Shown: one piece after another, positions 14,954 through 46,201 of the stretch
Layout of the letters: the number at the start of each line of letters is the position of its first letter
How positions within the stretch are numbered: position 1 is the first letter of the stretch
Origin: Candidatus Binatia bacterium
Lineage (GTDB): Bacteria > Desulfobacterota > Binatia > UBA12015
NCBI GenBank assembly: GCA_019749875.1
Contig: JAIEPK010000415.1
Span: 1-47,316 of the forward strand
DNA: 47,316 nt
Direction of reading: 5' to 3'
The notes under the pieces: model-generated
Told to the model about the DNA's origin: nothing
Databases searched by the model: none
The model's input: only the letters and a program-made list of their open reading frames with translations
Made by a program: the position numbers and the translations under genes

Positions 14954-16738
14954 GTGGCGCTGGCGACAAATGGCATTGGACGTGGCCGCGTGGTAGTCCC
15001 GCCCGGGAAAGGTGGCGCGGTGGAGCTGCAGATAAAGTCGCTCGAAGACCTGCTCGTCGAGCGCGGCCGGGTCAGCACCGAGGACCTGCGCAAGATCCGC
15101 AAGCTCCAGGCGGAGCGAGGCGAGCGCATCGAGCGCCTGCTGCTCGACCTCGGGTTCATCTCCGAGGACGACCTGCTGCCGGTGTTCAGCGAGTATCTCG
15201 GCGTCCCGCTGGTGTCGCGCAAGGAGCTGCCGAGCTCGGCGGTCTCGATCCCCGGGCTGAACGTCAAGTTCCTCCGTCACGCGCGCGTGCTGCCGGTGTC
15301 GCTCGCCGACGGCGTGCTCACCGCCGCGATGGCCGACCCGGGCGATCGCGACTCGCGCCAGGGCCTCGAGGTCGCGACCGGCTGCCGGCTGAAGCCGCTG
15401 CTCGCCAAGGAGAAGGACATCGTCGAGGCGCTCGAGGAGTGCTACGGCGAGCACGGCGAAGGGCAGGGTGACGGCGGCGGCGACGGCCTCGTCGAGTACC
15501 TGTCCGAGGACGAGGAGGACGTCGACCACCTGCGCGACCTCGCGAGCGAGGCGCCGGTCATCCGCTTCGTGAACGTCCTGATCAATCGCGCCGTCGAGAG
15601 CCGCGCGTCCGACATCCACATCGAGCCGTTCGAGAACGAGCTCAAGGTGCGGTACCGCATCGACGGCGTGCTGCACGACGTCGACGCCCCGCAGCGCCGG
15701 CTGCAGGCGGCGATCGTGTCGCGCATCAAGATCATGGCGAAGCTCAACATCGCCGAGCGTCGCCTGCCGCAGGACGGCCGCATCAAGCTGCGCATGATGG
15801 GCAAGGAGATCGATCTGCGCGTGTCGACGCTGCCCACGCTTTACGGCGAGAGCGTCGTGCTCCGTATCCTCGACCGCGGCTCGATCGTCCTCGACCTGAC
15901 CAAGCTCGGCTTTCCGCGCGACACCCAGGCGCAGTGGGACCAGCTGATCGTCAAGCCGTACGGCATGATCCTGGTGACCGGTCCGACCGGCTCCGGCAAG
16001 ACGACCACGCTCTACGGGTCGCTGAACAACATCAACTCACCGGACAAGAAGATCATCACGATCGAGGACCCGGTCGAGTATCAGCTGAACGGCGTCAACC
16101 AGATCCACGTCAAGCCACAGATCGGACTGACGTTCGCGAGCGGGCTGCGCTCGATCGTTCGCCAGGACCCGGACGTCATCATGGTCGGTGAGATCCGTGA
16201 CGCCGAGACGGCGGAGATCGCGATCCAGGCGGCGCTCACCGGCCACCTGGTGTTCTCGACGCTGCACACCAACGACGCCGCCGGCGCCGTCAGCCGACTG
16301 CTCGAGATGGGCGTCGAGGACTACCTGCTGGCGTCGTCGCTGCTCGGCGTGCTCGCGCAGCGCCTCGTGCGTCGCATTTGCCCCGACTGCAAGCGCCCGG
16401 TGGAGGGCATGCTCGCCGATCAGGCGGAGCTCAAGAGCTTCATGGCCGACGGGAAGAACGGTGAGCGCACCGAGGAGACGCTCGCCAACACGCCGCTCTT
16501 CCAGGGGGAGGGCTGCGACAACTGCTCGCACACCGGGTATCGGGGCCGCGCGGGCATCTACGAGCTGCTGATGGTCGACGACGCGGTTCGCCGGGCGATC
16601 CTCGATCACGCGTCCGCCGACCAGATCCGCACCAAGGCGATCGATCTCGGGATGCGAACGCTGCGCGAGGACGGCTGGCGGACCGTGCGCGAGGGCACCA
16701 CGACGCTGTCGGAGATCATCCGCGTCACGCGCGACTGA
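14954..16738 (+). CDS. gspE: Type II secretion ATPase GspE
   Basis: Cytoplasmic hexameric ATPase that powers pseudopilus assembly. The frame opens at GTG 14954, two bases after rmd; a GTG at 15020 (VELQIKSLEDLL) is a plausible shorter start because residues before it look unstructured. The N1E domain (EDDLLPVFSEYLGVPLV) is followed by ASDIHIEPFENELKVRYRIDG, Walker A GPTGSGKTTTLY, the Asp box ITIEDPVEYQ, Walker B DPDVIMVGEIRD and the His box FSTLHTNDA. The four-cysteine zinc site of GspE is present (CPDCKR, GCDNCSHTG). An acidic stretch (EYLSEDEEDVDH) precedes the ATPase core. PilB is the alternative, but the gspF-D block downstream favours GspE. Confidence 0.92.
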   Translation: MALATNGIGRGRVVVPPGKGGAVELQIKSLEDLLVERGRVSTEDLRKIRKLQAERGERIERLLLDLGFISEDDLLPVFSEYLGVPLVSRKELPSSAVSIPGLNVKFLRHARVLPVSLADGVLTAAMADPGDRDSRQGLEVATGCRLKPLLAKEKDIVEALEECYGEHGEGQGDGGGDGLVEYLSEDEEDVDHLRDLASEAPVIRFVNVLINRAVESRASDIHIEPFENELKVRYRIDGVLHDVDAPQRRLQAAIVSRIKIMAKLNIAERRLPQDGRIKLRMMGKEIDLRVSTLPTLYGESVVLRILDRGSIVLDLTKLGFPRDTQAQWDQLIVKPYGMILVTGPTGSGKTTTLYGSLNNINSPDKKIITIEDPVEYQLNGVNQIHVKPQIGLTFASGLRSIVRQDPDVIMVGEIRDAETAEIAIQAALTGHLVFSTLHTNDAAGAVSRLLEMGVEDYLLASSLLGVLAQRLVRRICPDCKRPVEGMLADQAELKSFMADGKNGERTEETLANTPLFQGEGCDNCSHTGYRGRAGIYELLMVDDAVRRAILDHASADQIRTKAIDLGMRTLREDGWRTVREGTTTLSEIIRVTRD

Positions 16739-17892: not shown

Positions 17893-19449
17893 TCAGGGGG
17901 CTCGGCGTCGGAGGTTGCCGTCCCCTCGTTCGAAGAGCCACAGGTCTTCCGCCCCCGGTACGCGTCGCCAGTCGCGCTCGAGTGATTCGGCGAACGCTTG
18001 TCGCGAATCCAGGAGCTCCGGGAATGGAACGTAGATGTAGCGCGCGCCCTGGAGAGCCTTCGCGATGTCGGCATCGCTCGCACGCGCCGTTTCCGACGCC
18101 AGTCGTTCGCCCACGGCGTTGCCCAGGGTGAGCGCCGTCCCGCGTCGATCACAATAATAGAGCACCGTCCCGCCGCGGTCGGACAGCACGAACAACTCGT
18201 CGCTCGGCCCGGTCAGAGATCGGACGCGCTCGCAGCGCTCCAGGAGCGAGCCGTACTGGGGCGGGATCGCTGCTGCGCGCCGTGCGATCGTGATGCCGCT
18301 GACGAGCAGGAGCGCGAACAGTCCCGCAACCGCTGCATTGCCGGCCCGAGGGAAGCGACTCTCGATCCAAGCGGAGACGCTCGCGCACCCTTGGGCGAGC
18401 AGAAGTGCCGCCACCGGGACGAGCGGCAGAAGGTAGTACTCGGTGCCTCGCGCTCGTTGGTCCAGCATGCGTGTCGCGAAGACCAAGCACTGTGCGATCG
18501 TGCCGATGCCCCATGCGAGAAGTGCGCGCTCGGTCGGGGTGCGATCTCCGTGATGCAGGGCGAGTCCGATCAGCGTCACGACGAGCCCGAGCGGGGTGAA
18601 CACCATCTGCACGATCTGACGCGCGATCTCCAGATACAGTGCGGGATCGAGCAGCAATCGCGGCGCGACCCAGCCGTCGGCGACCATCGCGCCCGCCGCC
18701 GGGTACACACGATGCAGGGCGAAGGCGTGCGCGTACCAGACTGCGGGGGGAGTCGCGCCGATCGTCAGGCACGCGAGCAGCATCGTGAGCTCGCGTCCCG
18801 AGGCCGCGCGCCGAGGTGCAGATGTCGCGCGACAGAGGACGATTCCGGCTGGAACGAGCCAGAACACCGCGTGCGGCTTGAGAGCCAGCGACAGCCCTGC
18901 GAAGAGGCCGACTGCGAGCGCGCGCGCCGCTGAAGGCCCATCGCGCCACCGTAGGAGCGTCAGGAATGCCGCCAGCGACGCTGCCACCAGCGCTGCGTCG
19001 CTCATGAACGCGCGTGAGTAGACGATCCCGAGAGGCGCGGCGAGAAACCAGGCCACGGCGAGCAGCGCGACGCCGTTCGTCACGGATCGGCGGACGATGG
19101 CGTGCAGGAAGAGGGATCCCGCAAGCCAGGCGACGATCCCGATCAGCCTTCCCGCCCGTTCATCGACCCGACCGGTGAGTCGATACGCCAATGCGGCCGT
19201 GCCGGGTACCAGCGGAACTTCCTTTAAAAAATATCCTGGTCGGCCGATATCGTCGACCAGCGGGCGGAGCCACGAGGCGCGGCCACGGTAGAGGTTTCGC
19301 GCGACCATCGCCGTGTGGGTCTGCTTCGCGGCCGCGCCTTCGAGAAGTGGCGCGTCCAGATGGTTGCACCGCAGGAGGAGCCCGGACAGAAGAAGACCCA
19401 CGAGAGCGATCCAGGAGATGGGCTCTCGGCGAGAGGAGGAGGGGATCAT
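17893..19449 (-). CDS. PMT/ArnT-like membrane glycosyltransferase (GT39/GT83 type)
   Basis: A polytopic enzyme of the GT-C fold that probably uses a polyprenyl-phosphate sugar to glycosylate lipid or protein on the periplasmic side. The ATG at 19449 gives 518 aa starting MIPSSSRREP; the upstream part of the 675-codon frame is arginine-rich and unlikely coding. About ten hydrophobic segments are visible. After the first helix comes LEGAAAKQTHTAMVARNLYRG, resembling the (R/K)QTxTAxxARNxY first-loop motif of this family, with the usual acidic position replaced by His. The C-terminal soluble part (YGSLLERCERVRSL, ELFVLSDRGGTVLYYCDRRG) is periplasmic. Convergent with the GtrB-like gene, its likely partner. 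Confidence 0.8.
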   Translation of the reverse strand: MIPSSSRREPISWIALVGLLLSGLLLRCNHLDAPLLEGAAAKQTHTAMVARNLYRGRASWLRPLVDDIGRPGYFLKEVPLVPGTAALAYRLTGRVDERAGRLIGIVAWLAGSLFLHAIVRRSVTNGVALLAVAWFLAAPLGIVYSRAFMSDAALVAASLAAFLTLLRWRDGPSAARALAVGLFAGLSLALKPHAVFWLVPAGIVLCRATSAPRRAASGRELTMLLACLTIGATPPAVWYAHAFALHRVYPAAGAMVADGWVAPRLLLDPALYLEIARQIVQMVFTPLGLVVTLIGLALHHGDRTPTERALLAWGIGTIAQCLVFATRMLDQRARGTEYYLLPLVPVAALLLAQGCASVSAWIESRFPRAGNAAVAGLFALLLVSGITIARRAAAIPPQYGSLLERCERVRSLTGPSDELFVLSDRGGTVLYYCDRRGTALTLGNAVGERLASETARASDADIAKALQGARYIYVPFPELLDSRQAFAESLERDWRRVPGAEDLWLFERGDGNLRRRAP

Positions 19450-19734
19450 CGCGACACCACGATGGCTGCTGCGCTCGAGGCCTGGCGCGGAAGCGATAGC
19501 AGATCGTGGGCGGTGAGCACGAGCGTATGGAACTCTCGAGATTGACTGAGGAGGCCGAAAGAATTCGCACGCTCGGTCGTCTTTAGGCAGAGCGTTAAGC
19601 TCGCGATGGCGAGCCGAGAGCGTTGGCCGCCGTGTTCGAAGGAATCGCAAGATCGTTCTGCGGCGGCGTTGTCGGTTGCAATGCGCTAGTCTCGATGGTA
19701 GGACGAAAAACCGTTTCGGTGTCTGGGGGGTTGT

Positions 19735-20229
19735 GTGCGGGTCGCCGATGCGGGCAAGGATACGGTGTTGGCGCAGAGTGGCTCTGGGCGGCAAGTCAAG
19801 GCTGCCGTCGCGATTGGAATCGCTGTCCTGGTCAGTGTCGCGGTAATTGCTGGATGGCAGAACAGCATTTGGCCGCTCAATCAGCATTCCGAGAAAGCCC
19901 TCGCGAGGCGAGCGCAGCAATACTGGGATTTGAAGATCTCAGGAGACACGTTGGGTGCGTATGGGTTCATGGCGGCATCGTACCGCCGCCGCGTCACTCC
20001 CGACGGGTTCGCGCGCGTGGGTGGCGGCTTGGTGATTCACACCGGGGCGGTGGTGAAGTCGGTCCATGTCCATGACGGCGACGCAACGGTCGACCTTGAG
20101 CTTCGCTATGTCCTCAACCATGGCCGCTTCGCAGACACCGAGTCCGTCGTTGAAGCGAAAGAACGCTGGGTGTTTGAGGACGGAGCCTGGCATCGATGGC
20201 CACCGGATGTTGGGCCGGATGTTGGTTGA
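19735..20229 (+). CDS. Small membrane-anchored protein of unknown function (NTF2-like fold possible)
   Basis: A 164-aa protein with one membrane helix at residues ~22-42 (AAVAIGIAVLVSVAVIAGW) and a soluble extracytoplasmic domain. The rest has a helix then strands: RAQQYWDLKISGDTLGAYGFM, RVTPDGFARVGG, VVKSVHVHDGDATVDLEL, ERWVFEDGAWHRW. This order, with a helix leading to a curved sheet and ending in a W-rich strand, is reminiscent of NTF2/SnoaL-like domains, a structural guess only. The start is a GTG at 19735 preceded by a G-rich stretch (TGGGGGGTTGT). Base composition around it is lower in GC than in flanking operons. It ends in a short duplicated DVGPDVG. No function assigned. Confidence 0.65.
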   Translation: MRVADAGKDTVLAQSGSGRQVKAAVAIGIAVLVSVAVIAGWQNSIWPLNQHSEKALARRAQQYWDLKISGDTLGAYGFMAASYRRRVTPDGFARVGGGLVIHTGAVVKSVHVHDGDATVDLELRYVLNHGRFADTESVVEAKERWVFEDGAWHRWPPDVGPDVG

Positions 20230-20242
20230 GGCATCCGGGGAG

Positions 20243-20270
20243 TTGAAAACGGAGGTTGTTTCGTTGTAGT
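20243..20270 (+). promoter_or_regulatory. Candidate promoter of the secreted 534-aa protein gene
   Basis: TTGAAA (20243-20248), a 16-bp spacer and TGTAGT (20265-20270) match five and four of six bases of the standard -35 and -10 boxes. The site lies in the 187-bp gap before the large secreted-protein gene and would give a leader of roughly 140 nt. Confidence 0.38.
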
Positions 20271-20416
20271 GGCTGATGCTACGCAAGCCATTGTGGAGGC
20301 AGGTGCGCTGACCTCAACCTCGCGCCCCAGTCGTTGCTGGCAGGCGGTGCGGAAGTCGAGAACTGGTCAAGGCAAGGCTTTCCCGAGAGGAGAGACGTAT
20401 GAAAGAGGAGGCAGGA

Positions 20417-22021
20417 ATGAAGCGTAGGGGAGCGTCGAGGGCGCTAGTGGCGTTGGCTGCGGCGGGGCTCGTGGCCTGCATCGGGTCCATCGCGTCGGCC
20501 CAAGAGAACATCTACGAGAACGAAAGCGGTCTGATGGGCGGCACTTTCGTCCCGGTTGGGGACAGTGCGGTGCAGTCCGACTTCGTGATCGCGGGACCGC
20601 GCCTGAACCCGAATGGGATCGGACAGTACCTGGTCGGCTCGTACTACGATGTGCGTCCCGTCGGTGTGGGCAACCCGACGAACGTGAACATCCAGATCAT
20701 CAACACCAACACGAACAACACGGGGCTTCCGCTCTGCAGCGAGGCCGACTACGCGAACGGCACCGACGGCGCCGGTTGCTACAACCCGCGCGGCGGTATC
20801 CTCGCCAAGATTCGTTTCCGCGAGTCGAAGCTCAGCAAGGAGGTCCTCGACTTCGTGGTGCCCATCTCGTGTGGCGAGGTTTGGGCAGGTGAGGTGTCGC
20901 TCGGCGACACGCTCCCGATCATCAAGTCGAAGTACCCGATCGCGACCAGTACCTCGAACGCGAACGCGATCATCGCCGACGACCTGCTCCTCAATGGCCA
21001 GCAGTTCGTTCCGAGCGGGACCCTTCCGGCGGGCGTGACGGCGGCGGACGTGCAGCACGGCTACATCGAGGTCATCGCGATGGAGGCCCTGAACTGCGAG
21101 CCCGACGACGGCACGCTCGACATCTCGTCGGCGGAGACCTGGACCCGCCTTGGTGTCGACCGCACGCCTTCGAACGCACTCGGTGCCGAGGCCTTCCTCG
21201 TTCGTCCGGTCGCCGGTGTCTCGTTCGCCTATAACTTCACGGCCATCAGCGCCTTCGTCGGCAGTGGTCTCGGCAGCATCGCGCCGCAAAACCTCTTCGC
21301 GGACAGCAATCCCGATTGGAACAGCTGCCGTGGCCTCGACATCAACCTGAACCCGTATGCCGATCAGTTCGATTGCGTCCGTCAAGCGAACCTCGCGCTC
21401 TCGAAGAGCCGCCTGGTCTCGCAGTACGACGTCGATCCGACCACGGCGGCCGACACGAACGTCGTCGTCACGCTGCCGACCAAGTACGTCAACTGCAACC
21501 TGAATGGTCAGGGCACCAACTACGCCACCAAGCGCTACGCGGGCACGTCGTTCCAGTGCGCGCCTGAGGGCGAAGAGATCTCCTGCACGCTGTACAACCG
21601 CGAAGAGGAGTTCGACAGCCCGGAGGAGCCGCCCTTCTCGCCGAGCGAGCCGGGTGAGGCCTGCCGTCTGCCGAAGGAGCTCACGATCATCAACATCACG
21701 GATGATCCGAACGTTCCTGGCATCCTCGGTGGCTTCGGTGACGTCGTGTTCAACACGGCCGCTGCGAACTTCGATCCGAAGGATAGCGGCTGGCTGGACC
21801 TCGATCTGGTGCGCAACGCCTCGGGCAACATCGTGCACCGCGAGATCTTCCCGAACGACACCACGCACGATATCCTCGGTGCGTACCTGCACGGCTACCG
21901 TGGTCTGCCGGCCATCGGGCTCGTCGCCCAGGGCTTCTTCAACGGTGTCGCTGGTGGCGTGTACGGCTCGATCGTTCCGTCGCTGGCGGAGCAGGTCGTG
22001 CTCAAGCCGAACCAGAGCTGA
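20417..22021 (+). CDS. Large secreted protein of unknown function, probably abundant
   Basis: A 534-aa exported protein (540 aa from the ATG at 20399). Both starts have a good Shine-Dalgarno, GAGAGGAGAG before 20399 and GAGGAGG before 20417; the second gives a normal signal peptide (MKRRGASRALVALAAAG, cleavage near ASA-QE), while the first would add two acidic residues to the n-region. The mature part is acidic, Asn-rich and beta-strand-like, with about ten cysteines. One segment, AKIRFRESKLSKEVLDF followed by EVWAGEV, resembles a pattern I recall from secreted proteobacterial proteins of unknown function. Codon choice is strongly restricted (AAC, AAG, ATC dominate). Own candidate promoter and strong terminator suggest high expression. 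Surface-layer or type II exoprotein are possibilities, not conclusions. Confidence 0.75.
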   Translation: MKRRGASRALVALAAAGLVACIGSIASAQENIYENESGLMGGTFVPVGDSAVQSDFVIAGPRLNPNGIGQYLVGSYYDVRPVGVGNPTNVNIQIINTNTNNTGLPLCSEADYANGTDGAGCYNPRGGILAKIRFRESKLSKEVLDFVVPISCGEVWAGEVSLGDTLPIIKSKYPIATSTSNANAIIADDLLLNGQQFVPSGTLPAGVTAADVQHGYIEVIAMEALNCEPDDGTLDISSAETWTRLGVDRTPSNALGAEAFLVRPVAGVSFAYNFTAISAFVGSGLGSIAPQNLFADSNPDWNSCRGLDINLNPYADQFDCVRQANLALSKSRLVSQYDVDPTTAADTNVVVTLPTKYVNCNLNGQGTNYATKRYAGTSFQCAPEGEEISCTLYNREEEFDSPEEPPFSPSEPGEACRLPKELTIINITDDPNVPGILGGFGDVVFNTAAANFDPKDSGWLDLDLVRNASGNIVHREIFPNDTTHDILGAYLHGYRGLPAIGLVAQGFFNGVAGGVYGSIVPSLAEQVVLKPNQS

Positions 22022-22051
22022 TCAGTTTTCGCTCTGAACTGTCCGTGAACG

Positions 22052-22080
22052 AGAAGGGCCGCCGTAATGGCGGCCCTTCT
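22052..22080 (+). terminator. Strong rho-independent-type terminator after the secreted-protein gene
   Basis: A perfect 12-bp stem (AGAAGGGCCGCC / GGCGGCCCTTCT) with a 5-base GTAAT loop starts 31 bp after the stop, followed by TCGTTGT. Only 24 bp separate it from the wzt start, so any transcription of wzt-wzm from the upstream promoter must read through it. Confidence 0.85.
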
Positions 22081-22104: not shown

Positions 22105-23160
22105 TTGAACGCGATCATCGCGACCGCTCTCACCAAGAGATACTCCGCTCCTCGCACGAGCTGGGCGGCGAAGACCACGGGGTTCATCGGCGGCGTCGCC
22201 GATGTTTCCTTCCAAGTTCAACGATCGGGAGCGCTCGCGATCATTGGACGCAACGGCGCCGGTAAGAGCACCCTGCTTCGGATGCTGGCCGGCCTTTCGC
22301 AGCCGAGCTCAGGCGATCTGCAGATCGTCGGGCGGCGCGGCTGCCTCCTCGAGCTCGGTGCGGGCTTCGTCGAGGAATGGTCGGGAAGCGAGAACGCGCG
22401 GAACACCTTGACGCTGCTCGGGATGTCGCCTTCCGACGCTTCGCGCGCCATGGTGTTCGCGGCGGACTTCTCTGAGCTCGGTCATTTCCTCGACCAGCCG
22501 GTGCGCATCTACTCGGCGGGGATGCGGCTGCGACTCGCGTACAGTCTGGTGATCGCGGCGCACCCCGAGGTGATCATCGCCGACGAGGTTCTGGGCGTCG
22601 GTGACGAGGCATTCCAGCGGAAGTGCTCGCATCATGTTCTGCAGTTTTTGAAGGACGGCGGAACGATGGTTCTCGCGACGCACAATCTCTACTTGGCGGA
22701 ACGGCTGTGTCAGACCGCCATCTGGCTCGACGCCGGAACGGTCCGCGCCCAGGGCAACTGCCACGAGGTGACGAAGGCTTACCGGGCGCACCTGGAGTGT
22801 GCGGACGCCAGCGATGTCGAGGCGGTCAGTGGGACCGGGGCCGACGCGGACCCGTTGATCTGGATCGATGGTCAGCCTCGTCGCGGCGCCACACTGCAGT
22901 TCTCGATGCCCCTGCGCATCGTGGTGGGCGCCAAGGATCGCGCTCGGATCGAGGTCCGCCGCCCGAACGGGACGCTCGTTCTCTCTGCCGAATCCCTCGG
23001 AGTCGGGACGAGCGAGATCGCCCATCCGTGGCTGCTGCCGGGTCAATACTTCGTTCGGCTCGTCGGCCAGGGGGACCGTGTGCTCGACGAGATCCCGATC
23101 AACTGTGTCGGTGAGCGGCGTGAGCTCGGCACCGTCTACCTTGAGCACCAATGGACGTGA
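22105..23160 (+). CDS. wzt: Polysaccharide ABC exporter ATPase, Wzt type (first copy)
   Basis: Energises export of undecaprenyl-linked O-polysaccharide or capsule through the adjacent permease. The 351-aa product starts at TTG 22105. Walker A is IGRNGAGKST (residues 47-56), the signature segment is YSAGMRLRLAYS and Walker B is VIIADEVLGVGDE, all in the form characteristic of Wzt/TagH/KpsT ATPases. Residues ~235-351 form an extra beta-rich domain (RIVVGAKDRARIEVRRPNG, PGQYFVRLVGQGD) where Wzt proteins carry their polysaccharide-recognition module. This one is shorter than usual, so it may recognise a different terminus or none. It overlaps wzm by 10 bp. Confidence 0.9.
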   Translation: MNAIIATALTKRYSAPRTSWAAKTTGFIGGVADVSFQVQRSGALAIIGRNGAGKSTLLRMLAGLSQPSSGDLQIVGRRGCLLELGAGFVEEWSGSENARNTLTLLGMSPSDASRAMVFAADFSELGHFLDQPVRIYSAGMRLRLAYSLVIAAHPEVIIADEVLGVGDEAFQRKCSHHVLQFLKDGGTMVLATHNLYLAERLCQTAIWLDAGTVRAQGNCHEVTKAYRAHLECADASDVEAVSGTGADADPLIWIDGQPRRGATLQFSMPLRIVVGAKDRARIEVRRPNGTLVLSAESLGVGTSEIAHPWLLPGQYFVRLVGQGDRVLDEIPINCVGERRELGTVYLEHQWT

Positions 23161-23981
23161 TCGTCGCGCCGGCAGATCTGCGCCGCAGCAAATTGGTGCT
23201 CGAAACCCTCGTTCGTAAACGCCACCTGGTGTGGGCGTTGATCAGGCGAGACGTGAGCTCGCGCTTCGCCGGCTCCAGGTTGGGCTTCTTCTGGTCGCTC
23301 TTGAACCCGGTGATCCAGCTCGCGTCGTACGGAATCATCTTTGGCTTGATCTACGCTCCGGCGAACGGGCGAGTTGCAGGCGGTAGCCTCGTGCCGGCAC
23401 TGTTCTGCGGACTCTGGCCGTGGTGGGCGTTCAGCGAGGGAACGATCCGCGGCTATGCCGCGTTGGTGGATCAGAGCGCGCTGCTGAAGCGCTTCCCGAT
23501 GCCGATCGAAGTTTGCGTGGTGGCCGCCGCGACGTCGGCGTTTCTCCTGCAGATCGTCGGGTTCGCACTGTTCTTGATCGTCTTCGCGCTTCTCGGCGTG
23601 GTCTCGCCGCAGATGGGGTGGTGGTTCGTTCCCGGCGTCGTGGTGGCCCAGCTGGTGCTCGTCAACGTCCTCGCGCTCGTTTTGGCGCCCCTGTACTTGG
23701 TGGTGCGAGACACCGGCTACGTCGCCAATGCGTGTCTCACGATCGGGTTCTTCGCATCCCCGGTCCTGTTCGTCTTCGACTCGCTGCCCGCAGGACTCCG
23801 TGTCGTCCCGATGCTGAATCCGATGGCCTCGCTGATCGGGCTGTACCGAGCGCTCGTTCTGGGCCAGCCGTGGCCGCCGGTGATCTCTCTGGTCGTCTTG
23901 GTGGCGAGCATTACCGGGCTCTTCCTGCTTGCGGGACGCTTGCTCGCTCGGTTGGACGGAGTACTCGACGAGTACTGGTAG
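23151..23981 (+). CDS. wzm: Polysaccharide ABC exporter permease, Wzm type
   Basis: Inner-membrane half of the exporter; 276 aa with about six membrane helices in the ABC-2 arrangement. The N-terminus shows the amphipathic gate helix and RRDVSSRFAGSRLGFFWSLLNP, a hallmark of Wzm/TagG/KpsM permeases. Later helices include FLLQIVGFALFLIVFALL, VVAQLVLVNVLALVLAPLY and the C-terminal LVVLVASITGLFLLAG. The ATG at 23151 lies inside the end of wzt, so the two are translated together. It is the only such permease seen in the window although two Wzt ATPases are present. Confidence 0.93.
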   Translation: MDVIVAPADLRRSKLVLETLVRKRHLVWALIRRDVSSRFAGSRLGFFWSLLNPVIQLASYGIIFGLIYAPANGRVAGGSLVPALFCGLWPWWAFSEGTIRGYAALVDQSALLKRFPMPIEVCVVAAATSAFLLQIVGFALFLIVFALLGVVSPQMGWWFVPGVVVAQLVLVNVLALVLAPLYLVVRDTGYVANACLTIGFFASPVLFVFDSLPAGLRVVPMLNPMASLIGLYRALVLGQPWPPVISLVVLVASITGLFLLAGRLLARLDGVLDEYW

Positions 23982-25300: not shown

Positions 25301-26251
25301 ATGAGGACTAGTCAGTATCTCGTTCTGGGCGTCGCGACACTGCTCTTGACGTGGCGAGTGCCGTGCCCGAGCCCGGCCGCCGCCGACGAAGGTCCGGTCG
25401 TCGAAGTGGGCGATCTGCGGCCTACCGCTGCCGACTTGAAGGCAGAATTCGCCTACCTCCCGCCGCCGGTGCTGCAGCGTCTGCGCAACGACGACAACGC
25501 GGCTCGGATCTTTGCCGTCGATTGGTACGCGCGTGCACTCTTCGCCAAAGCCGCGAAGGAAGACGGCCTGCTTGCGAAGAGCCCCGGGCTCGTTGCCGCC
25601 GCGACGTCGCGGGAGCGCGACCTGATCGCGACGCAGTACCTCCGTCAAACCGAGGGCGAGTTTCGCGTCACCAACGAAGAGGCGGAGCAGTTTCGAAAGA
25701 TGGAGCCGGAGGTCTGCCGGGAGCCGGGCAGGGTACACTTCGCCCGCATCGGTGTGATCACGGGGAAGAAGGCCGCGTCCGACGAAGCCGAGCTCGCCGG
25801 AAAGCGTTTTGCCGACATCCAGAAGCGCATCGCCGCCGGCGAAGATTTCGGGAAGATCGCCGACGAGGCGTCGGATTATTCGTCGAAGGCGGCTGGCGGC
25901 GACATGGGCTGGATGGAGATCGAGAAGGTTCGCGAGTCTCCGCACGGCGAGGCGATCTTGAAGCTCGCCGTGGGGGAAGTGTCGCAACCGCTCGACACCG
26001 GCCAGGGCAAGGTCGTCTACAAGATCCTCGCCCGCGAGGACGCGCACGACCTCCCCGCGGCGGAGTGTCGTGAGCGGGTGGACAAGCTCCTTACCCAGAA
26101 ATATCGCAAGGAGACGTTCCTCCGCCGCGTCGACGAGCTCGCCGCTCGCTTCAAGGCGTCACTGAATCTCGACGCCTTCATCGCCGCGGTTCGCGCCGTG
26201 CCGCTGCAGGAAGGGTGGGAACGCACGTACCAGTCCGAGGAGGTCTGGTGA
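25301..26251 (+). CDS. Exported peptidyl-prolyl cis-trans isomerase, parvulin (PpiC/EpsD) type
   Basis: Folding helper for exported proteins. The ATG at 25301 has a GGGAGGGA ribosome site and a signal peptide (MRTSQYLVLGVATLLLTW, cleavage near PAAA-DE); the longer ORF start at 25151 lacks these. Product: 316 aa. A helical N-terminal segment (residues ~40-130) precedes the parvulin domain (~140-250): VHFARIGVI, AAGEDFGKIADEASDYSSKAAGGDMGWM and LAVGEVSQPLDTGQGKVVYKIL. This is the SurA/PrsA/EpsD layout. Its stop overlaps the second wzt (GTGA), placing it in a polysaccharide export operon as EpsD-type isomerases often are. Client unknown. Confidence 0.88.
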   Translation: MRTSQYLVLGVATLLLTWRVPCPSPAAADEGPVVEVGDLRPTAADLKAEFAYLPPPVLQRLRNDDNAARIFAVDWYARALFAKAAKEDGLLAKSPGLVAAATSRERDLIATQYLRQTEGEFRVTNEEAEQFRKMEPEVCREPGRVHFARIGVITGKKAASDEAELAGKRFADIQKRIAAGEDFGKIADEASDYSSKAAGGDMGWMEIEKVRESPHGEAILKLAVGEVSQPLDTGQGKVVYKILAREDAHDLPAAECRERVDKLLTQKYRKETFLRRVDELAARFKASLNLDAFIAAVRAVPLQEGWERTYQSEEVW

Positions 26252-27504
26252 CCGCAGCCCACGGGCCGGGCGAGAAGCGCCCCATCCTGTGCGCACGGAA
26301 CCTCGGCAAGCACTATTCGCTGTCGCGGTCGCGCTTGCGTCGTTTGTGGCGCGGACCGAACGCGGCTTCCCGCGCTGCGCCTCACGACGAGGGACTGTGG
26401 GCCGTCCGTGACGTCTCGCTTGCGCTCGATCGGGGGGATGCCATTGGCGTCATCGGCGCGAACGGCGGCGGCAAGTCGACCTTGCTCCGCCTTCTGGCCG
26501 GAACGGCCCGACCGAGCGAGGGGACGATCGAATGGGGCGCGAGCGTGGCTTCGTTGCTCGACCTCGGCGTCGGCTTTCACCCGCTGGAGACGGGCCGTGA
26601 GAACGCGGAGACGGCGCTGATCCTTCAAGCGGGGATGAGCCGTCGCGAGGCGCGCCAGCGGGTTGCGGAAGTGGCTGCCTTCGCGGACCTGCGTGACTTC
26701 TTCGATCGCCCGATCCGGATCTATTCGGACGGCATGCGCCTGCGTCTCGGATTCGCGGTGATCACGCTGCTGTCGGCCGACGTCCTGGTCACCGACGAGA
26801 TCCTCGCCGTCGGCGACCAAGGATTTCAGCGCCGCTGCGAGGCCTGGCTCGATCGCTTCATGGGCAATGGCGGGACCTTGATCCTTTGCTCGCACGATCT
26901 CTCACAGGTGCAGCGGCTGTGTTCGCATGCGCTGTGGATGAGCGGTGGCCGGGCCCGGGCGAGCGGTGACCCTCGCGCGGTGATCCGTGCGTACCGTCAA
27001 TCGCTCGGCGGTTCCGATGACGATGCACTCGATCAGCCGTTGCCCGGCCGAGCACACGCCATCGGCGAGGTGACGAACCTTCCCTTCGAGGTCGTTGCGC
27101 TCGCGCTGCAGGACGAGACGGGGCGCGACGTGACCAGCGTCTCGGAGGGGGCGACCGTTCTCGTCACCGTCGACGTGCACGCTCCAGCGGCCGTGCCACA
27201 GGTCTTCATCGGGATCACGCGCGCCGACTTGACGCCGATCTACGGACTGGCGAGCGACATGGACGGTGCCGTGCCGCAGCGGATCGACGGGGATCGCTAC
27301 CGCTTTCGCCTCCGCTTCAGCGACCTGCCGCTGGTCCCCGAACGCTATCGTCTTCGGGCCCACGCCATGGACGAGACCGGAACCCGCCTCTACGATACCG
27401 TGGAGCTGACCTTCGACGTGACGGGTCGACCCTGCGACGGGGGATTGGTCCGACCGCACGTCCGGAGGTCGTCCTCGATCGACGCGATCTCGCCACCGTC
27501 ATGA
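26248..27504 (+). CDS. Polysaccharide ABC exporter ATPase, Wzt type (second copy)
   Basis: A 418-aa ATPase starting at GTG 26248, overlapping the isomerase stop and preceded by GAGGAGG. Walker A reads GANGGGKST (residues 70-78), the signature segment is YSDGMRLRLGFA, and the Walker B region is VLVTDEILAVGDQ. The C-terminal ~165 residues (LPFEVVALALQDETGRDVTS, TVLVTVDVHAPA, GLASDMDGA, LPLVPERYRLRAHAMD) form the classic Wzt C-terminal beta sandwich that binds the modified non-reducing end of the O-polysaccharide in well-studied systems. No permease is adjacent, so it may share Wzm from 23151 or act with one outside the window. Confidence 0.9.
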   Translation: MTAAHGPGEKRPILCARNLGKHYSLSRSRLRRLWRGPNAASRAAPHDEGLWAVRDVSLALDRGDAIGVIGANGGGKSTLLRLLAGTARPSEGTIEWGASVASLLDLGVGFHPLETGRENAETALILQAGMSRREARQRVAEVAAFADLRDFFDRPIRIYSDGMRLRLGFAVITLLSADVLVTDEILAVGDQGFQRRCEAWLDRFMGNGGTLILCSHDLSQVQRLCSHALWMSGGRARASGDPRAVIRAYRQSLGGSDDDALDQPLPGRAHAIGEVTNLPFEVVALALQDETGRDVTSVSEGATVLVTVDVHAPAAVPQVFIGITRADLTPIYGLASDMDGAVPQRIDGDRYRFRLRFSDLPLVPERYRLRAHAMDETGTRLYDTVELTFDVTGRPCDGGLVRPHVRRSSSIDAISPPS

Positions 27505-27550: not shown

Positions 27551-28810
27551 ATGACCGCAGATGTCGCGGTCTGGCTCTGGCCCGCCGGCATCGTCGCTCT
27601 CGCGGCGCTGCTGGCGTGGTGGCGACCGGCGCTGGTCTTTCCGATGGTCCTGATCGCCGTGCCGCTGCGACTCCCGGTGTTTCCCGAGGTCGAGATCGCG
27701 ACGCTTCTCTTCGTCGGCGCCGTGCTGGGCCGCGCCACCCACATCGTGGAGGCGTTGCTCGCGTATCCGGGGCTCACCCTCACCACGGCAGCGTTGCCCG
27801 CATGGTTTCTTGCCTCCGCGCTGTGGGCGCGGCAGGCGATCTTCGTGTTTCCCGCGGCCGGCAAGTGGCTGGTCGTGTGGCTCGCGATGGCTCTCGTTCT
27901 TTCCGACGAGACCCTGCGGCCGAAGCGGGTGGTGGTGGCCGCGCTCGCGGCGATGGTGCCGATGGCGCTCTGGGGAGCTGCAGAGCGCCTTCATGTGATC
28001 GCGCCGCTCGGTGATCAACAGATCCTGCGCAACCGAGCCATCGAGCTCGGAACTCTCGTCCGGGGCCGCGCGCTCTTCTGGCATCCGAACCGGCTCGCCG
28101 AGTTCGTCGAGCAGCTGGGCCTGCTGCTGGTGGGCTGCGGTACGAGCGGTCTCCTGCCGCTCAGCTCGCTGATCGGCGCATTGATCGCGTGTCTCGGCGT
28201 ATGGGGAACCGATTCGAAGGCCGGCCTTGCCACGATGGTGGGCGGCGGCGTCCTGGTCGCGGTATGGCTCTCGACGTCGGCCAGCACGCGGCGACGCGCG
28301 ACCCCGGTCCTCGTCGTCGGGCTCCTCGCGAGTGCCGCCGTCGTGACCTGGGCGTACGTCGCGCACGGCGGCGTCGGCACGCGGACCCTCATCTACCGCT
28401 ATGCGTGGAAGCTGCTCGAGAATCATCCGCTGCTCGGTGTGGGAGGCGGCAACTGGGCGCTCGCGGTCGGCATGGCGCCGCTGTCCGTCAGTCGCTTCTG
28501 GTTTCGCTCGCACGCGCACTCCTTGCCCCTGCAGCTCGCCGTCGAGGTAGGGCTCGTCGGGCTCGGGCTGGGGGTGCTCTTCTTCGCGTCGCCGGTGGTC
28601 TTCGCCTTGCGACGCATGCCTCCGTCCGGCTCGGAGTGGCGCGGGGTGACCTGTGGTGCCCTCGCCGGCGTGCTCGGTCTGCTCGCACACAACCTCGTGC
28701 ACTACTTCCTGCGTGATCCCGTCGACGGCATCACCACCGGGCTCTTGCTGGGCCTCGCCGTGCGGGGGGCCATCGATGCAACGACCGGCTCGAGCCGGAA
28801 ATGCGATTGA
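27551..28810 (+). CDS. O-antigen ligase / polymerase (WaaL/Wzy_C family)
   Basis: A 419-aa integral membrane protein with about 11-12 helices. Near the C-terminus it carries the Wzy_C/WaaL signature: WKLLENHPLLGVGGGNW, then RSHAHSLPLQLAVEVGLVGLGLG in a large periplasmic loop; His and Arg of this loop are catalytic in the family. It either joins finished O-polysaccharide to lipid A-core or polymerises repeat units. Because the locus exports by ABC transporter (where chain growth is cytoplasmic), the ligase role is the better guess. An internal patch RALFWHPNRLAEFVEQ also fits the family. ATG at 27551, 46 bp after the second wzt. Confidence 0.82.
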   Translation: MTADVAVWLWPAGIVALAALLAWWRPALVFPMVLIAVPLRLPVFPEVEIATLLFVGAVLGRATHIVEALLAYPGLTLTTAALPAWFLASALWARQAIFVFPAAGKWLVVWLAMALVLSDETLRPKRVVVAALAAMVPMALWGAAERLHVIAPLGDQQILRNRAIELGTLVRGRALFWHPNRLAEFVEQLGLLLVGCGTSGLLPLSSLIGALIACLGVWGTDSKAGLATMVGGGVLVAVWLSTSASTRRRATPVLVVGLLASAAVVTWAYVAHGGVGTRTLIYRYAWKLLENHPLLGVGGGNWALAVGMAPLSVSRFWFRSHAHSLPLQLAVEVGLVGLGLGVLFFASPVVFALRRMPPSGSEWRGVTCGALAGVLGLLAHNLVHYFLRDPVDGITTGLLLGLAVRGAIDATTGSSRKCD

Positions 28811-38223: not shown

Positions 38224-38353
38224 GTCCATGGAGCCAGGCCGGCCCGTGGTCGGCGCTCCGCCCGGCTGAAGGCCCGCGCTCGCGACGAGCAGGCGCGGAA
38301 CGACGGTGCGGGGCGTTGCGCCGGATGTCCATTTCCGGCGGGCAGAGCACAGC

Positions 38354-39580
38354 ATGGCGCAGTTCCAGTACCGGGCCACCGACGCCGAGGGAAAGATCCT
38401 CGAGGGCGTCATCGACGCCGCCGAGCGCAGCATTGCCGTCGCGCGTCTGCAGGACCGCGGCCTGATCCCGCTGAAGGTCGCCGAGCCGACCGCGCAGAAG
38501 AGTGGGCTCGCCAGCATCTCGCTGCCGTCGTTCAGCTTCAAGCGCGGCGTGCGCGCGCGCGACCTGCTGATCTTCACGCACGAGATGAGCACGCTGCTCG
38601 CGGCCGGTATGCCGCTCGATCGCAGCCTCTCGATCCTGACCGACCTCTCCGAGCGTCCGGAGATGAAGGCGATCGTCGCCGACGTCCTGCAATCGGTGCA
38701 GCGCGGCAAGTCGCTCGCCGAAGCGCTCGCGCAGCACCCGAAGGTCTTCCCCCCGATCTACATCAACATGGTGAAGGCCGGTGAGATCGGCGGTGTGCTC
38801 GACCACGTTCTGGGCCGTCTCACCGACTACCTCGAGCGCGCCAACGAGCTGCGCGACGAGGTGCGCTCGGCAATGGTCTATCCGCTCATCCTGCTGTTCA
38901 CGGCATTCGTGTCGGTGACCGTGCTGCTGACGTACGTGCTGCCGAAGTTCGGTGCGATCTTCGCACAGGCCGGGCATGCGTTGCCCTTCACCGCACGCAT
39001 GCTGCTCGGAATCTCGGACGCGATGCGCTCGTACTGGTGGGCGGGCCTGGTGGTCGCCGCCGCCGTCGGCTTCGCCGTGATGCACTTCCTGCGTACCCCC
39101 ACCGGACGCCTGCAGTGGGATCAGATCAAGCTGCGTCTCGTGCTGATCGGCGATCTCACGCGGAAGGTGGCGGTCGCGCGCTTCGCGCGTACTCTCGGTA
39201 CGCTGCTCAAGAGCGGCGTCCCGATGCTGCAGGCGCTCGAGATCGTTCGCGAAGTCGCGGGCAATCTCGTCCTGGCCCAGGCAATCGACGAGGTGAAGGT
39301 CGGTGTCCGGGGCGGCTCGGGGGTCGCGCAGCCGCTCAACCACACCGGCGTGTTCCCGCCGCTCGCGCTGCAGATGATCAGCGTCGGCGAGGAGACCGGC
39401 AAGCTCGACGAGATGCTGATCCAGGTCGCCGATTACTTCGACAAGGAAGTCCGCCAGTCGGTGAAGCGGCTCACGTCGCTCCTCGAGCCCGCGCTGCTGC
39501 TGGTGGGCGGCGTCGTCGTCGCGTTCGTCGTGCTGTCGATGTTCTCGGCGATCTTCAGCATCAACAACATGCCGCTCTGA
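38354..39580 (+). CDS. gspF: Type II secretion inner-membrane platform protein GspF
   Basis: Polytopic platform protein that couples GspE to pseudopilin assembly. The ATG at 38354 gives 408 aa beginning MAQFQYRATDAEGKILEG, the standard GspF start; the track ORF is longer by 16 residues. Two T2SSF repeats are visible, each starting with a helical bundle: DLLIFTHEMSTLLAAGMPLDRSL and VARFARTLGTLLKSGVPMLQAL. Three membrane helices include LILLFTAFVSVTVLLTYVL, WWAGLVVAAAVGFAVM and LLLVGGVVVAFVVLSMFSAIF. It heads a contiguous run to gspD. Confidence 0.95.
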   Translation: MAQFQYRATDAEGKILEGVIDAAERSIAVARLQDRGLIPLKVAEPTAQKSGLASISLPSFSFKRGVRARDLLIFTHEMSTLLAAGMPLDRSLSILTDLSERPEMKAIVADVLQSVQRGKSLAEALAQHPKVFPPIYINMVKAGEIGGVLDHVLGRLTDYLERANELRDEVRSAMVYPLILLFTAFVSVTVLLTYVLPKFGAIFAQAGHALPFTARMLLGISDAMRSYWWAGLVVAAAVGFAVMHFLRTPTGRLQWDQIKLRLVLIGDLTRKVAVARFARTLGTLLKSGVPMLQALEIVREVAGNLVLAQAIDEVKVGVRGGSGVAQPLNHTGVFPPLALQMISVGEETGKLDEMLIQVADYFDKEVRQSVKRLTSLLEPALLLVGGVVVAFVVLSMFSAIFSINNMPL

Positions 39581-39607: not shown

Positions 39608-40147
39608 GTGATTCGACAGACCATCATCGCACGGTGTCGCCCGTGTCTCGGAATTCTGGCCGCGCGTCGTCGCACCGACCGCCGCATCGGGACGACGGGC
39701 GAGCCCGCAACGCTTCGTCCTCGGCGAAGCCGTTTCGTCGAGCAGGCCGGCTTCACGCTCATCGAGCTCCTCGTCGTGCTCGTGATCATCGGCTTGCTCG
39801 CGACGCTGGTGGCGCCGAACTTCATCGGTCAGAGCGAGAAGGCGAAGCCGAAGGCGGCGCGCGTGCAGCTCGAGAACCTGCGCAACGCGCTCGACATGTT
39901 CCAGCTCGACGTCGGGCGCTATCCGACCACGGAGGAAGGACTCGAAGCGCTGCGCGTCCGCCCCAACTCGGCGGCGCGCTGGGCCGGTCCCTATCTCCGT
40001 GACGAGATCCCCGTCGATCCGTGGAGCCGGCCGTACGTGTACCGCAGCCCCGGCGAGGGCGGCGGCAACTACGACATCGGCAGCTACGGTGCCGACGGCC
40101 GCGCCGGCGGCGACCAGCTCAACGCGGACATCGTCATCTCCGGCTAG
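39608..40147 (+). CDS. gspG: Type II secretion major pseudopilin GspG
   Basis: Main subunit of the pseudopilus; 179 aa. The prepilin peptidase site is AG|FTLIELLVVLVIIG with Glu at +5. The mature part contains the GspG calcium-site and C-terminal pattern: GRYPTTEEGLEALRVRP, GPYLRDEIPVDPWSRPYVY and YDIGSYGADGRAGG. The leader before the cleavage site is about 47 residues and basic, far longer than the usual 5-15. The GTG at 39608 has an AAGGAGG ribosome site, and no ATG, GTG or TTG lies closer in frame, so the long leader seems real. Confidence 0.94.
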   Translation: MIRQTIIARCRPCLGILAARRRTDRRIGTTGEPATLRPRRSRFVEQAGFTLIELLVVLVIIGLLATLVAPNFIGQSEKAKPKAARVQLENLRNALDMFQLDVGRYPTTEEGLEALRVRPNSAARWAGPYLRDEIPVDPWSRPYVYRSPGEGGGNYDIGSYGADGRAGGDQLNADIVISG

Positions 40148-40205: not shown

Positions 40206-40769
40206 ATGGAGACGGCGGCTCCGCGCGGCTCTGCTGCGTGGAGCCGCCGGGCAGGTTCCCCGTCGTCGAGCGACGCGAGCATGGGGCGCTCTGGGGCGTG
40301 TGCCTCGTCGTCGGACCGTCAGGCCGGGTTCACGTTCCTCGAGATCATGATCGTGATCGGCATCATCGCGGTCGCGGCGACGCTGGTCGCACCGGCGATC
40401 GATTCCGGCATGCGCGCGCGCGAGGTGCGCAGCGCGGTGCGCAACGTCGCGGCCACGCTGAAGACCATGCAGAGCGACGCGGTCATCAGTGGGCGCGTGC
40501 AGCACCTCGTCATCGATCCACAGGAAAACCAGCTGCGCGTCGAGGACCGCGATGCGTCGTTCACGCTCGGACCGTCGACGCAGATGACCCGGGTGCGCGG
40601 CGGCGAGATCACGCCGACGGGAATGGTGCGCGTCAACTTTTACCCGAACGGCAGCACCAGCGGCGTGGACGTCGTGATCGACGATCGCGAGACGCCGGCG
40701 GACACGGGTTTTCTGGTGACGCTCGATCCGCTGATCGGCGTGGTGACGATCCAGGACGAGCCGCGGTGA
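40206..40769 (+). CDS. gspH: Type II secretion minor pseudopilin GspH
   Basis: Minor pseudopilin of 187 aa from ATG 40206. Other in-frame starts are GTG 40152 (205 aa) and ATG 40281, which would leave a normal leader of about 16 residues. The cleavage segment is AG|FTFLEIMIVIGIIAVAATLV with Glu at +5. The remaining sequence (ARNV-like RSAVRNVAATLKTMQSDAVISG, then strands with LVIDPQENQLRVED and GMVRVNFYPNGSTSGVDVVI) matches the GspH/FimT globular fold. Its stop overlaps gspI. Confidence 0.85.
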   Translation: METAAPRGSAAWSRRAGSPSSSDASMGRSGACASSSDRQAGFTFLEIMIVIGIIAVAATLVAPAIDSGMRAREVRSAVRNVAATLKTMQSDAVISGRVQHLVIDPQENQLRVEDRDASFTLGPSTQMTRVRGGEITPTGMVRVNFYPNGSTSGVDVVIDDRETPADTGFLVTLDPLIGVVTIQDEPR

Positions 40770-41173
40770 CGCCTCGGCGGAGCTCGCAAGGCGGCTTCAC
40801 GCTGATCGAGATCGCGATCGGCATGGCGGTGCTCGGCCTGTGCGTCGTGTCGGCGCTCCAGGTCTTCGGCGGCTCGATGCGGCTCGCGCGCAATGCCTCG
40901 CGCATGACCGAGGCCGTCGTTCACGCGAAGGCCTTGATGGACTCCGTTCTCTGGGCTCCGGAGCTGACCCCCGCGACGACGCACGGCACCATCGGCAACG
41001 GCTTTCGCTGGCAGCGGACGATTCGCGACGCCGGCGTCGAGGACGGCGCCGCGGAAGAGCAGACCGACCTTCGCCTCGCCGTCATCTCCGTCACGGTCGA
41101 ATGGGACGAGCCCAACGGCGTCAAGGCATACACGATCGGCACCCTGCGGGTCGTACCGAACAATGGCGAGTGA
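40766..41173 (+). CDS. gspI: Type II secretion minor pseudopilin GspI
   Basis: 135 aa from the GTG at 40766, overlapping the gspH stop (GTGA); the longer track ORF runs back through gspH. The leader is short and basic (VTPRRSSQGG) and cleavage falls before FTLIEIAIGMAVLGL, with Glu at +5. The downstream LARNASRMTEAVVHAKALMDSVL and the closing VEWDEPNGVKAYTIGTLRV fit GspI, which starts the minor pseudopilin tip complex with GspJ and GspK. Confidence 0.88.
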   Translation: MTPRRSSQGGFTLIEIAIGMAVLGLCVVSALQVFGGSMRLARNASRMTEAVVHAKALMDSVLWAPELTPATTHGTIGNGFRWQRTIRDAGVEDGAAEEQTDLRLAVISVTVEWDEPNGVKAYTIGTLRVVPNNGE

Positions 41174-42065
41174 GCGAACAGCACGACCGTGCGCACGCGC
41201 AGCGCGCGACGGTACCTCGGCGCGCGCAGACGCAGTGCTCGCGCCGGCGACGTCGGTCGTCGGCGCCGGTTCGCGCCGGTCGACGTGGTGCGACGCCGGC
41301 GCGCCGCGTGGTGCGTCACGTCGAGTGCCGCTGCCGGCGTCGTCGAGCGGCTTCACGCTGCTCGAGCTGATGATCTCCTTGACGCTGCTCGGGGTGATGC
41401 TCGCCATGGTGTACAGCGTCTTCGCGACCGCGCTCGCGGCGGTGCCGCGCGGTGAGGACGTGGCGGCGCGGTCGGCGCGCATGCGGGCCGCGACCTCGCT
41501 GCTGGCGCGCCAGGTACGCTCGATCATCTCGTTCCCCGTCGAGGGCGAGGAGGAGTCGACGCCCTGCTACTTCTGGGGCAATCGCTACGCGTTCGAGTTC
41601 GTCACGGCGACGCCGCAGCACAACGGCGGCGAGGGCCTGGCGAAGGTGACGTACAGCACCGACGGAACCAGCTTCTCGATGCGCGAGGAGGTCGTGTTCT
41701 CGGCCGCCGCGATCACCGGGGAGGCGGCGGCCGCACCGGTGTCCGCGGTGACGCTGCTCGACGGCCTGAAGAGCGTCCGCTTCCAGTACCTGCGTCTCGA
41801 CGGCACCGACAGCGAGTGGCGCGACGAGTGGGATCCCTACGAGGAGCAGACGCTGCCGGGGGCAATCCGGGTGACGCTCGACGGCTTGGGAGTCGGTGAC
41901 TCCTACTGGATCCAGGAGATCCCCGTCATGCTCGTCTCGTACGGCCTCGGCTCGTACGACTGCGAGGGCGGCTTCGGTCAGCGCGAGGGCGGCAGCCACA
42001 ACGCCATCAAGGACGGCGGCGGCCCCGACGACGGCGGCCCCGATGATGGCGGGCCCGACGACTGA
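41163..42065 (+). CDS. gspJ: Type II secretion minor pseudopilin GspJ
   Basis: 300 aa from ATG 41163, which overlaps gspI by 11 bp; a GTG at 41325 would leave only nine residues before the cleavage site and may be the true start. Cleavage is SG|FTLLELMISLTLLG with Glu at +5. The globular domain (RMRAATSLLARQVRSIISF, VTLLDGLKSVRFQYL, LPGAIRVTLDG) is typical of GspJ. The C-terminus ends in three GGPDD repeats, an unusual acidic tail. Confidence 0.88.
   Translation: MASERTARPCARAARDGTSARADAVLAPATSVVGAGSRRSTWCDAGAPRGASRRVPLPASSSGFTLLELMISLTLLGVMLAMVYSVFATALAAVPRGEDVAARSARMRAATSLLARQVRSIISFPVEGEEESTPCYFWGNRYAFEFVTATPQHNGGEGLAKVTYSTDGTSFSMREEVVFSAAAITGEAAAAPVSAVTLLDGLKSVRFQYLRLDGTDSEWRDEWDPYEEQTLPGAIRVTLDGLGVGDSYWIQEIPVMLVSYGLGSYDCEGGFGQREGGSHNAIKDGGGPDDGGPDDGGPDD
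42018..42062 (+). repeat. Three 15-bp tandem repeats in the 3' end of gspJ
   Basis: Three consecutive 15-bp units of the form GGCGGCCCCGACGAC (second and third copies carry synonymous changes) encode GGPDD-GGPDD-GGPDD immediately before the gspJ stop. Confidence 0.9.
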
Positions 42066-44619: not shown

Positions 44620-45438
44620 GTGCGCGATTTTCTCGCCAACCTGCTCGGCCGCCTGCGCGCGACCAATCGCCAGCAGCGCCTGTACCTCGCGCTCGGCGTG
44701 CTCCTGCTGCTGGTCGTGGGGCGGCTCGCGATCTCGTGGTTCCTCGATTTCCGCTCGGACCTCAAGGAAGACCTCCGTCTCACGGCGCAGCGGCTCGCGA
44801 CGGCGCAGCGGCTCGCGCAGCGCGCGCCGCAGACCAAGAAGGAGTTCGACGCGCTGCAGGCGCGCTATCAAGCGACCGTCGCCGAGCTGGTTCCGGGCGA
44901 CACGCCGACGCTCGCCGCGGCGGCGCTGCAGGATCGCGTTTCCGCGCTGGCGAGCGAGAAGAAGGTCAGCGTTCAGACCACCCAGGTGCTGAAGGACGAG
45001 GCGCTCGGCCCGTTCCGTCAAGTATCCCTGCGCATCACCGCGTCGGGGGAGCTGCACGACCTCGCCGACTTTCTCACCGCGCTCGAGTTCGGACCGCTGC
45101 GCGTGTCGATCCCCTTCATCGAGCTGTCACGCCGCGGCGCGATGGTGCGCAAGCAGGGAGTCGGGCGGACCGTCTCGGCGACGATCCAGGTCTCGGGGGT
45201 CGTCCAGGGAACCGCTCAGCTCGCCAGTGTGCAGAAGGTCGCGGCGAAGGGTGGTGAGGCTCCGGCGTCGGCTCCCGAGGCGGCAGCGCCAGCGGTTGCC
45301 CCGGGGTCGGGCGAGAGCGCACCGGCCGCCGCTCCGCCGGCGGGTCTCGGCCAGCGCTTGCCGCCGGCCGCCGAAGCCGACCGTCCGCCGGTTCCCGATG
45401 ATCCGCTCGGTACCAGCCAGATGGTGACGCCGCCGTGA
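44620..45438 (+). CDS. gspM: GspM/PilO-like inner-membrane assembly protein
   Basis: 272 aa from GTG 44620. A short cytoplasmic start is followed by one membrane helix (LYLALGVLLLLVVGRLAISWFL), a coiled coil (LRLTAQRLATAQRLAQRAPQ) and a ferredoxin-like domain (LASEKKVSVQTTQVLKDEALGPF, DLADFLTALEFGPLRVSI), the GspM/PilO arrangement. It ends in ~75 residues of Ala/Pro-rich disordered tail, longer than usual. GspM dimerises with GspL. The stop overlaps gspC. Confidence 0.83.
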   Translation: MRDFLANLLGRLRATNRQQRLYLALGVLLLLVVGRLAISWFLDFRSDLKEDLRLTAQRLATAQRLAQRAPQTKKEFDALQARYQATVAELVPGDTPTLAAAALQDRVSALASEKKVSVQTTQVLKDEALGPFRQVSLRITASGELHDLADFLTALEFGPLRVSIPFIELSRRGAMVRKQGVGRTVSATIQVSGVVQGTAQLASVQKVAAKGGEAPASAPEAAAPAVAPGSGESAPAAAPPAGLGQRLPPAAEADRPPVPDDPLGTSQMVTPP

Positions 45439-46136: not shown

Positions 46137-46201
46137 AGCCGATCCTCGATGGTCTTAAAAAGCTCCTCGTTCTCGGCTACACCGCGGGGCAGGGAGGGGG
46201 C

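Follow-up and report, generated by a model that had tools for sequence, protein, structure and literature searches.

The stretch of DNA analysed here (the window, 47,316 nucleotides) carries a genuine gene, referred to below as SURF, in an open reading frame that extends from 20399 to 22021 on the forward strand and for which 20417 is the better start. SURF occurs once in its own genome and lies in an island of genes for type II secretion (T2SS), polysaccharide export and glycosyl transfer (Table 1).

Table 1. Features in and around the SURF island, in window coordinates.
Feature	Position	Strand	Remarks
GspE, T2SS ATPase	14954..16738	+	
PMT-like glycosyltransferase	17893..19500	-	start approximate
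Small protein with membrane anchor; weakly NTF2/DUF4440-like	19735..20229	+	directly upstream of SURF
Conserved 5' block, two overlapping SD/start sites	20385..20419	+	GAGAGGAGNNNNNTATGAAAGAGGAGGNNGGAATG
SURF, candidate NpdA-type surface protein gene	20417..22021	+	534 aa; alternative in-frame start 20399
Sec signal peptide	20417..20500	+	28 aa, cleaved between ASA and QEN; sequence reading, alignment
N-terminal beta-rich domain, residues 58-300	20588..21316	+	motifs GQxLxGxYYDVR, NIQIxNTNT, VRFRESKxSKEVLDFxIxLSCGEVW
Terminator-like hairpin, 12 bp	22052..22080	+	GC-rich
Wzt-like ATPase 1, polysaccharide exporter	22105..23160	+	
Wzm-like permease, polysaccharide exporter	23151..23981	+	
PpiC-type peptidylprolyl isomerase, periplasmic	25301..26251	+	
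Wzt-like ATPase 2 with Wzt_C domain	26215..27504	+	
Wzy/O-antigen-ligase-like protein	27551..28810	+	
GspF	38306..39580	+	
GspG, major pseudopilin	39608..40147	+	
GspH/I-type pseudopilin (N_methyl)	40238..41173	+	
GspJ	41163..42065	+	
GspK	42065..43153	+	
GspL (PilM/PilN domains)	43201..44583	+	start approximate
GspM subtype b	44620..45438	+	
GspC-like protein	45435..46136	+	
GspD secretin	46137..47316	+	truncated at contig end; start approximate

The Wzt/Wzm genes at 22105-23981 follow SURF directly, in agreement with an earlier sequence-only reading of this DNA that had pointed to an adjacent polysaccharide ABC exporter. The gsp genes are split around SURF, with GspE 3.7 kb upstream and GspF to GspD 16-26 kb downstream, yet they belong to one conserved island, which in the window also includes several other glycosyltransferases and LptD, and whose gene order is retained in six other family genomes as far as their contigs extend. 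Contig C506 of the same genome opens within a matching GspD C-terminal half and is probably the continuation of the window's gene, because each of the genome's other two secretins already has a long open frame; beyond GspD it encodes a further Wzm/Wzt, another small lipoprotein and one more secreted protein. A second GspK found elsewhere in the genome suggests that there is another T2SS, which would suit a dedicated system in the SURF island.

Some neighbouring genes were recorded in passing. The cassette on C506 (L127, 5422-9272) encodes a secreted protein 58% identical to one in another genome (G002, L057), with a 35% identical counterpart beside a T2SS in G018 (L126). In the window, the product of 24267-24989 (-) is small and secreted, contains a Thr/Pro linker, has no Pfam match and occupies the same place in the family islands, and 30042-32228 (-) encodes an astacin-type metalloprotease with FG-GAP repeats; in L111 and L113 the small lipoprotein also has FG-GAP-like neighbours.

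Expression signals and protein features of SURF

Both in-frame starts of SURF are preceded by a strong Shine-Dalgarno sequence (GAGAGGAG..ATGAAAGAGGAGG..GGAATG), arranged as GAGAGGAG-N5-TATGAAAGAGGAGG-NN-GGAATG. This 35-nt block was found exactly once per genome in five family genomes, each time before an orthologue, whereas the reversed pattern gave no match in these five genomes; it is kept although the family proteins are mostly only ~45-50% identical. The two overlapping ribosome sites described from the sequence are therefore borne out, as is the GC-rich terminator, whose hairpin is strong (dG -32.5 kcal/mol, z -6.8), though its T-tail is weak (TTCTTCGTTG). The promoter boxes claimed in the same reading were not recovered: between 20200 and 22200 no sigma-70-like site reached the threshold, against 0.3 expected by chance. 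As for the proposed narrow codon choice and high expression, SURF has a codon adaptation index (CAI) of 0.64 relative to the ribosomal proteins of its own genome, inside the range of the ribosomal set itself (0.55-0.83) and about 11th among the 30 window genes, while its GC3-corrected residual is the highest of the 30 (+0.067, z 2.3). The codon bias is thus modestly raised, and the very high expression typical of S-layer proteins is only suggested by codon usage, because the raw index is mid-range and stands out just after the GC3 correction.

The N-terminus reads by eye as a standard Sec signal peptide (MKRRGASRALVALAAAGLVACIGSIASA followed by QEN, with cleavage after residue 28), so that the clean signal peptide of the sequence-only reading holds. 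A lipobox-like LVAC (residues 18-21) is present in SURF and its nearest orthologue, and is unconserved across the family. The mature protein (~53.7 kDa) is acidic and beta-rich, with a pI of 4.33, 5.5% Lys plus Arg and 11.5% Asp plus Glu. Acidic pI and low Lys/Arg are S-layer traits, as are few or no cysteines, which is typical though not universal; SURF departs from the latter with 10 Cys, most of them conserved in the family. The absence of a recognised domain was confirmed, since searches by sequence of Pfam, NCBIfam and PDB returned no match and the profile gave only chance-level matches to PDB. Structure prediction, which the earlier reading had proposed as a check, gave no match to a solved fold: both AlphaFold models were of low confidence (for the whole protein, pLDDT 49; for the N-terminal domain, pLDDT 69 and pTM 0.72), and three Foldseek searches returned nothing at E <= 1e-3.

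Family distribution, distant homology and a small partner protein

In a single-sequence search of 145 relatives, SURF was present in 14/14 genomes of its own GTDB family, several of which also have paralogues, and was absent from the remaining class relatives. Matching public contigs are titled 'Deltaproteobacteria bacterium' and similar MAGs; one family contig, CAMBZJ010000028.1 (L031), is labelled Klebsiella pneumoniae, apparently by mistake. The viral contigs searched held no relative. The family profile reached other lineages of the same phylum (11/395 genomes), and tblastn with one of these distant members led to plasmids of Nitratiruptor (Campylobacterota) and Comamonas odontotermitis. 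Aligned with hhalign, the family profile matches the Comamonas/Nitratiruptor group at 99.5% (E 1.6e-22), six further distant members at 99.2% (E 1.6e-19) and the Comamonas protein alone at 97% (E 9e-11, 311 columns), compared with 0.1% for an unrelated PPIase as control; SURF and the Comamonas protein are just ~20-25% identical.

SURF itself and most island copies are stand-alone proteins. Among relatives, the SURF domain also occurs behind LRR_5 (L025) or Cys-rich DUF4215-like stretches (L010), frequently with a Thr/Pro linker in between, and in one case it is followed by PKD repeats (L041). Contigs of G005 break within SURF genes (loci L021/L025 and L023/L024). Exactly 141 nt at the break are common to two genes with unlike N-termini, one stand-alone and one fused to LRR_5-Thr/Pro, and two differing 3' ends likewise have exactly 141 nt in common, which suggests that near-identical core copies were collapsed in assembly. 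Two copies in G006 (L003/L015) are ~90% identical. These copies may point to gene conversion or antigenic variation. The small plasmids of Nitratiruptor (L043, L045) combine T2SS genes with genes for NpdA-like proteins (two or one), PPIases, an S8 protease, a PMT-like enzyme and proteins rich in Ser; these last have a repeated ~60-aa domain, and their C-termini end in GAFEGI-like tails that may act as a sorting signal.

The Comamonas relative very probably connects SURF to a characterized S-layer protein. NpdA forms the S-layer of Delftia acidovorans Cs1-4 and Paracidovorax citrulli, where its deletion abolishes the S-layer, and this type is established in Betaproteobacteria by deletion and cryo-EM (PMC10765051; PMC3110197). 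In Paracidovorax, NpdA has a 25-aa signal peptide and a domain-free mature protein of 52.4 kDa, and npdA adjoins 12 gsp genes, which lie upstream; the orthologues listed come from 62 Beta- and 49 Gammaproteobacteria, C. odontotermitis included (PMC10765051). The C. odontotermitis relative of SURF (510 aa, mature ~51 kDa) follows gspE-F-G-H-I-J-K-L-M-C-D and a small lipoprotein gene, and is itself followed by a PPIase and Wzm/Wzt. Given its place downstream of the gsp operon and the inclusion of C. odontotermitis among the species with npdA, we identify it, by locus and species listing, as very probably the NpdA of this species. A 'nanopod' gene cluster in a 2026 benzene paper (PMC13101534) was considered and set aside, as it concerns DUF1329/MMPL proteins, not NpdA.

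Two further genes recur with SURF. A homologue of the PpiC-type isomerase is found beside or near it in Comamonas, Nitratiruptor, G459, G432, G384 and G513. The other is the small gene directly upstream, whose product belongs to a family of membrane-anchored proteins, mostly lipoproteins in the distant relatives, with shared YW, AY and W...WY positions (motif YW..D..AY..E / W..WYH) and no Pfam entry. An NTF2/DUF4440-like Pfam match is sub-threshold (E 0.035), and we offer this affiliation as a guess from sequence resemblance. The small gene adjoins SURF in all family islands that cover the stretch and in nearly all distant loci; in Comamonas it separates gspD from the surface protein gene, and in Nitratiruptor the surface protein gene from the isomerase gene. 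In a hold-out test, HMMs made from family and plasmid sequences alone recovered the small partner next to the surface protein gene in all the distant loci tested but one, L064. Across 395 genomes of the phylum, the small-family profile gave 49 matches, of which the 11 strongest were exactly the 11 SURF genomes; this rank is partly built in, because members from those genomes were among the profile rows, and the independent part of the evidence is the hold-out test. Of the weaker matches that we examined, several fall within T2SS operons or adjoin genes for Wzm/Wzt and other secreted proteins, so that the small protein may have a wider role with T2SS cargo of this type. Beside such weaker lipoprotein matches, the secreted proteins L114, L115 and L120 are distant SURF relatives (hhalign 94%); for secreted proteins of the L111, L117 and L127 type no link to SURF was established, and they were left uncounted. 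A text search of the NpdA paper (PMC10765051) found no mention of a lipoprotein or an isomerase, and a literature search joining S-layer, type II secretion, NTF2 and lipoprotein found no paper. We regard this conserved, uncharacterized gene as the freshest element of the finding.

A putative T2SS-exported surface layer and its known counterparts

We consider it reasonably likely that SURF is the subunit of an NpdA-type surface layer, exported by the T2SS and held on an ABC-exported polysaccharide. The signal peptide, the homology and the gene linkage are what the analysis shows; dependence on the T2SS, anchoring on the polysaccharide, lattice assembly and the parts played by the isomerase and the small lipoprotein are inferred. 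Sec would move the protein by its signal peptide into the periplasm, where folding and disulfide formation would be aided by the PpiC-type isomerase and perhaps also by the small lipoprotein. The T2SS encoded in the island would then carry SURF across the outer membrane, and at the surface it may assemble as a two-dimensional coat held on the O-polysaccharide delivered by the neighbouring Wzm/Wzt. The Aeromonas A-layer is anchored on O-polysaccharide. In Delftia, reconstitution of the S-layer and assembly of NpdA reportedly depend on LPS (PMC3110197), which fits the linkage of SURF to polysaccharide export. The earlier suggestion of a surface-layer or matrix protein finds good support in the NpdA-type homology, the dedicated-looking island T2SS, the O-polysaccharide exporter and the PPIase, whereas its description of the family as unrecognised does not wholly stand, because the homology extends to an S-layer type that is already known.

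Several observations speak against an S-layer, namely the ten conserved cysteines, unusual for a classical S-layer protein, the weak AlphaFold models that match no solved fold, the distance of the GspF-D genes (16 kb off rather than immediately upstream), and the relatives fused with LRR_5, other domains or PKD repeats, which would suit an adhesin or matrix module equally well. In the main rival reading, the T2SS exports SURF as a non-crystalline protein of the surface or biofilm matrix, which would bind the exported polysaccharide and serve as an adhesive scaffold instead of forming an S-layer. The family members with the domain behind Thr/Pro linkers, LRR_5 or DUF4215-like stretches, or with PKD repeats, favour it, coupling to polysaccharide export suits a matrix protein as well as an S-layer, and Slr4 of Pseudoalteromonas tunicata is itself both (PMC7821379). 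However, SURF and most island copies are stand-alone, NpdA-sized and homologous to a very probable NpdA, and we regard the scaffold as unlikely, though deserving serious consideration.

Enzymes are the most frequent T2SS exports, and SURF is disulfide-rich, so that a soluble exported enzyme or lectin of new fold might also be considered, with weak, non-significant Foldseek resemblance to jelly-roll/lectin folds. But the alignment shows no conserved catalytic-looking constellation, its invariant residues being mostly Gly, Cys, Pro and Asn, no fold matches at E <= 1e-3, and both the NpdA-like homology and the neighbours point elsewhere, making this very improbable. The chance is slimmer still that SURF is a periplasmic or outer-membrane lipoprotein that bypasses the T2SS: LVAC would fit a lipobox in SURF and G003, but across the family its cysteine is unconserved, and an A-x-A type site for signal peptidase I is widespread.

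S-layer proteins diverge fast and are therefore seldom found by sequence. If SURF is indeed an NpdA-type surface-layer subunit, an S-layer type so far known from Pseudomonadota alone would take in an unannotated protein from an uncultured family of 'Deltaproteobacteria', as well as 'hypothetical proteins' of Campylobacterota and other lineages, and the SURF group would be a distant, cysteine-rich, non-Pseudomonadota branch of it. More tentatively, and with some doubt, NpdA-type export could be an old multi-phylum system with a fixed small lipoprotein as chaperone, pilot or anchor, a PpiC isomerase and an ABC-exported polysaccharide, whose S-layer domain has in some lineages become modular and adhesin-displaying, with near-identical copies recombining. 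The profiles from this analysis (A3 and A4) allow further NpdA-type coats to be found, and the role of the small lipoprotein is open to direct testing in culturable Delftia or Comamonas.

Among known systems, SURF resembles NpdA in its Sec signal peptide, its mature size (~53.7 kDa; NpdA ~52 kDa), the lack of domains, the profile homology to the C. odontotermitis protein as a very probable NpdA, the polysaccharide/LPS link, and the linkage to a gsp cluster, though less tightly than by the immediate adjacency in Paracidovorax. It differs in coming from another phylum, whereas reported NpdA orthologues end at Beta- and Gammaproteobacteria, in having ~10 conserved cysteines rather than 4, in being flanked by split gsp genes, and in having paralogues fused to other domains. 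Slr4, an S-layer protein whose gene lies beside a T2SS operon, is likewise stand-alone, domain-less, secreted and of similar size, a likeness drawn by description alone, but its homologues are nearly all from marine Gammaproteobacteria (PMC7821379). Aeromonas VapA is similar to SURF in gene setting, being an S-layer gene beside the operon of a dedicated T2SS, as cited in PMC10765051.
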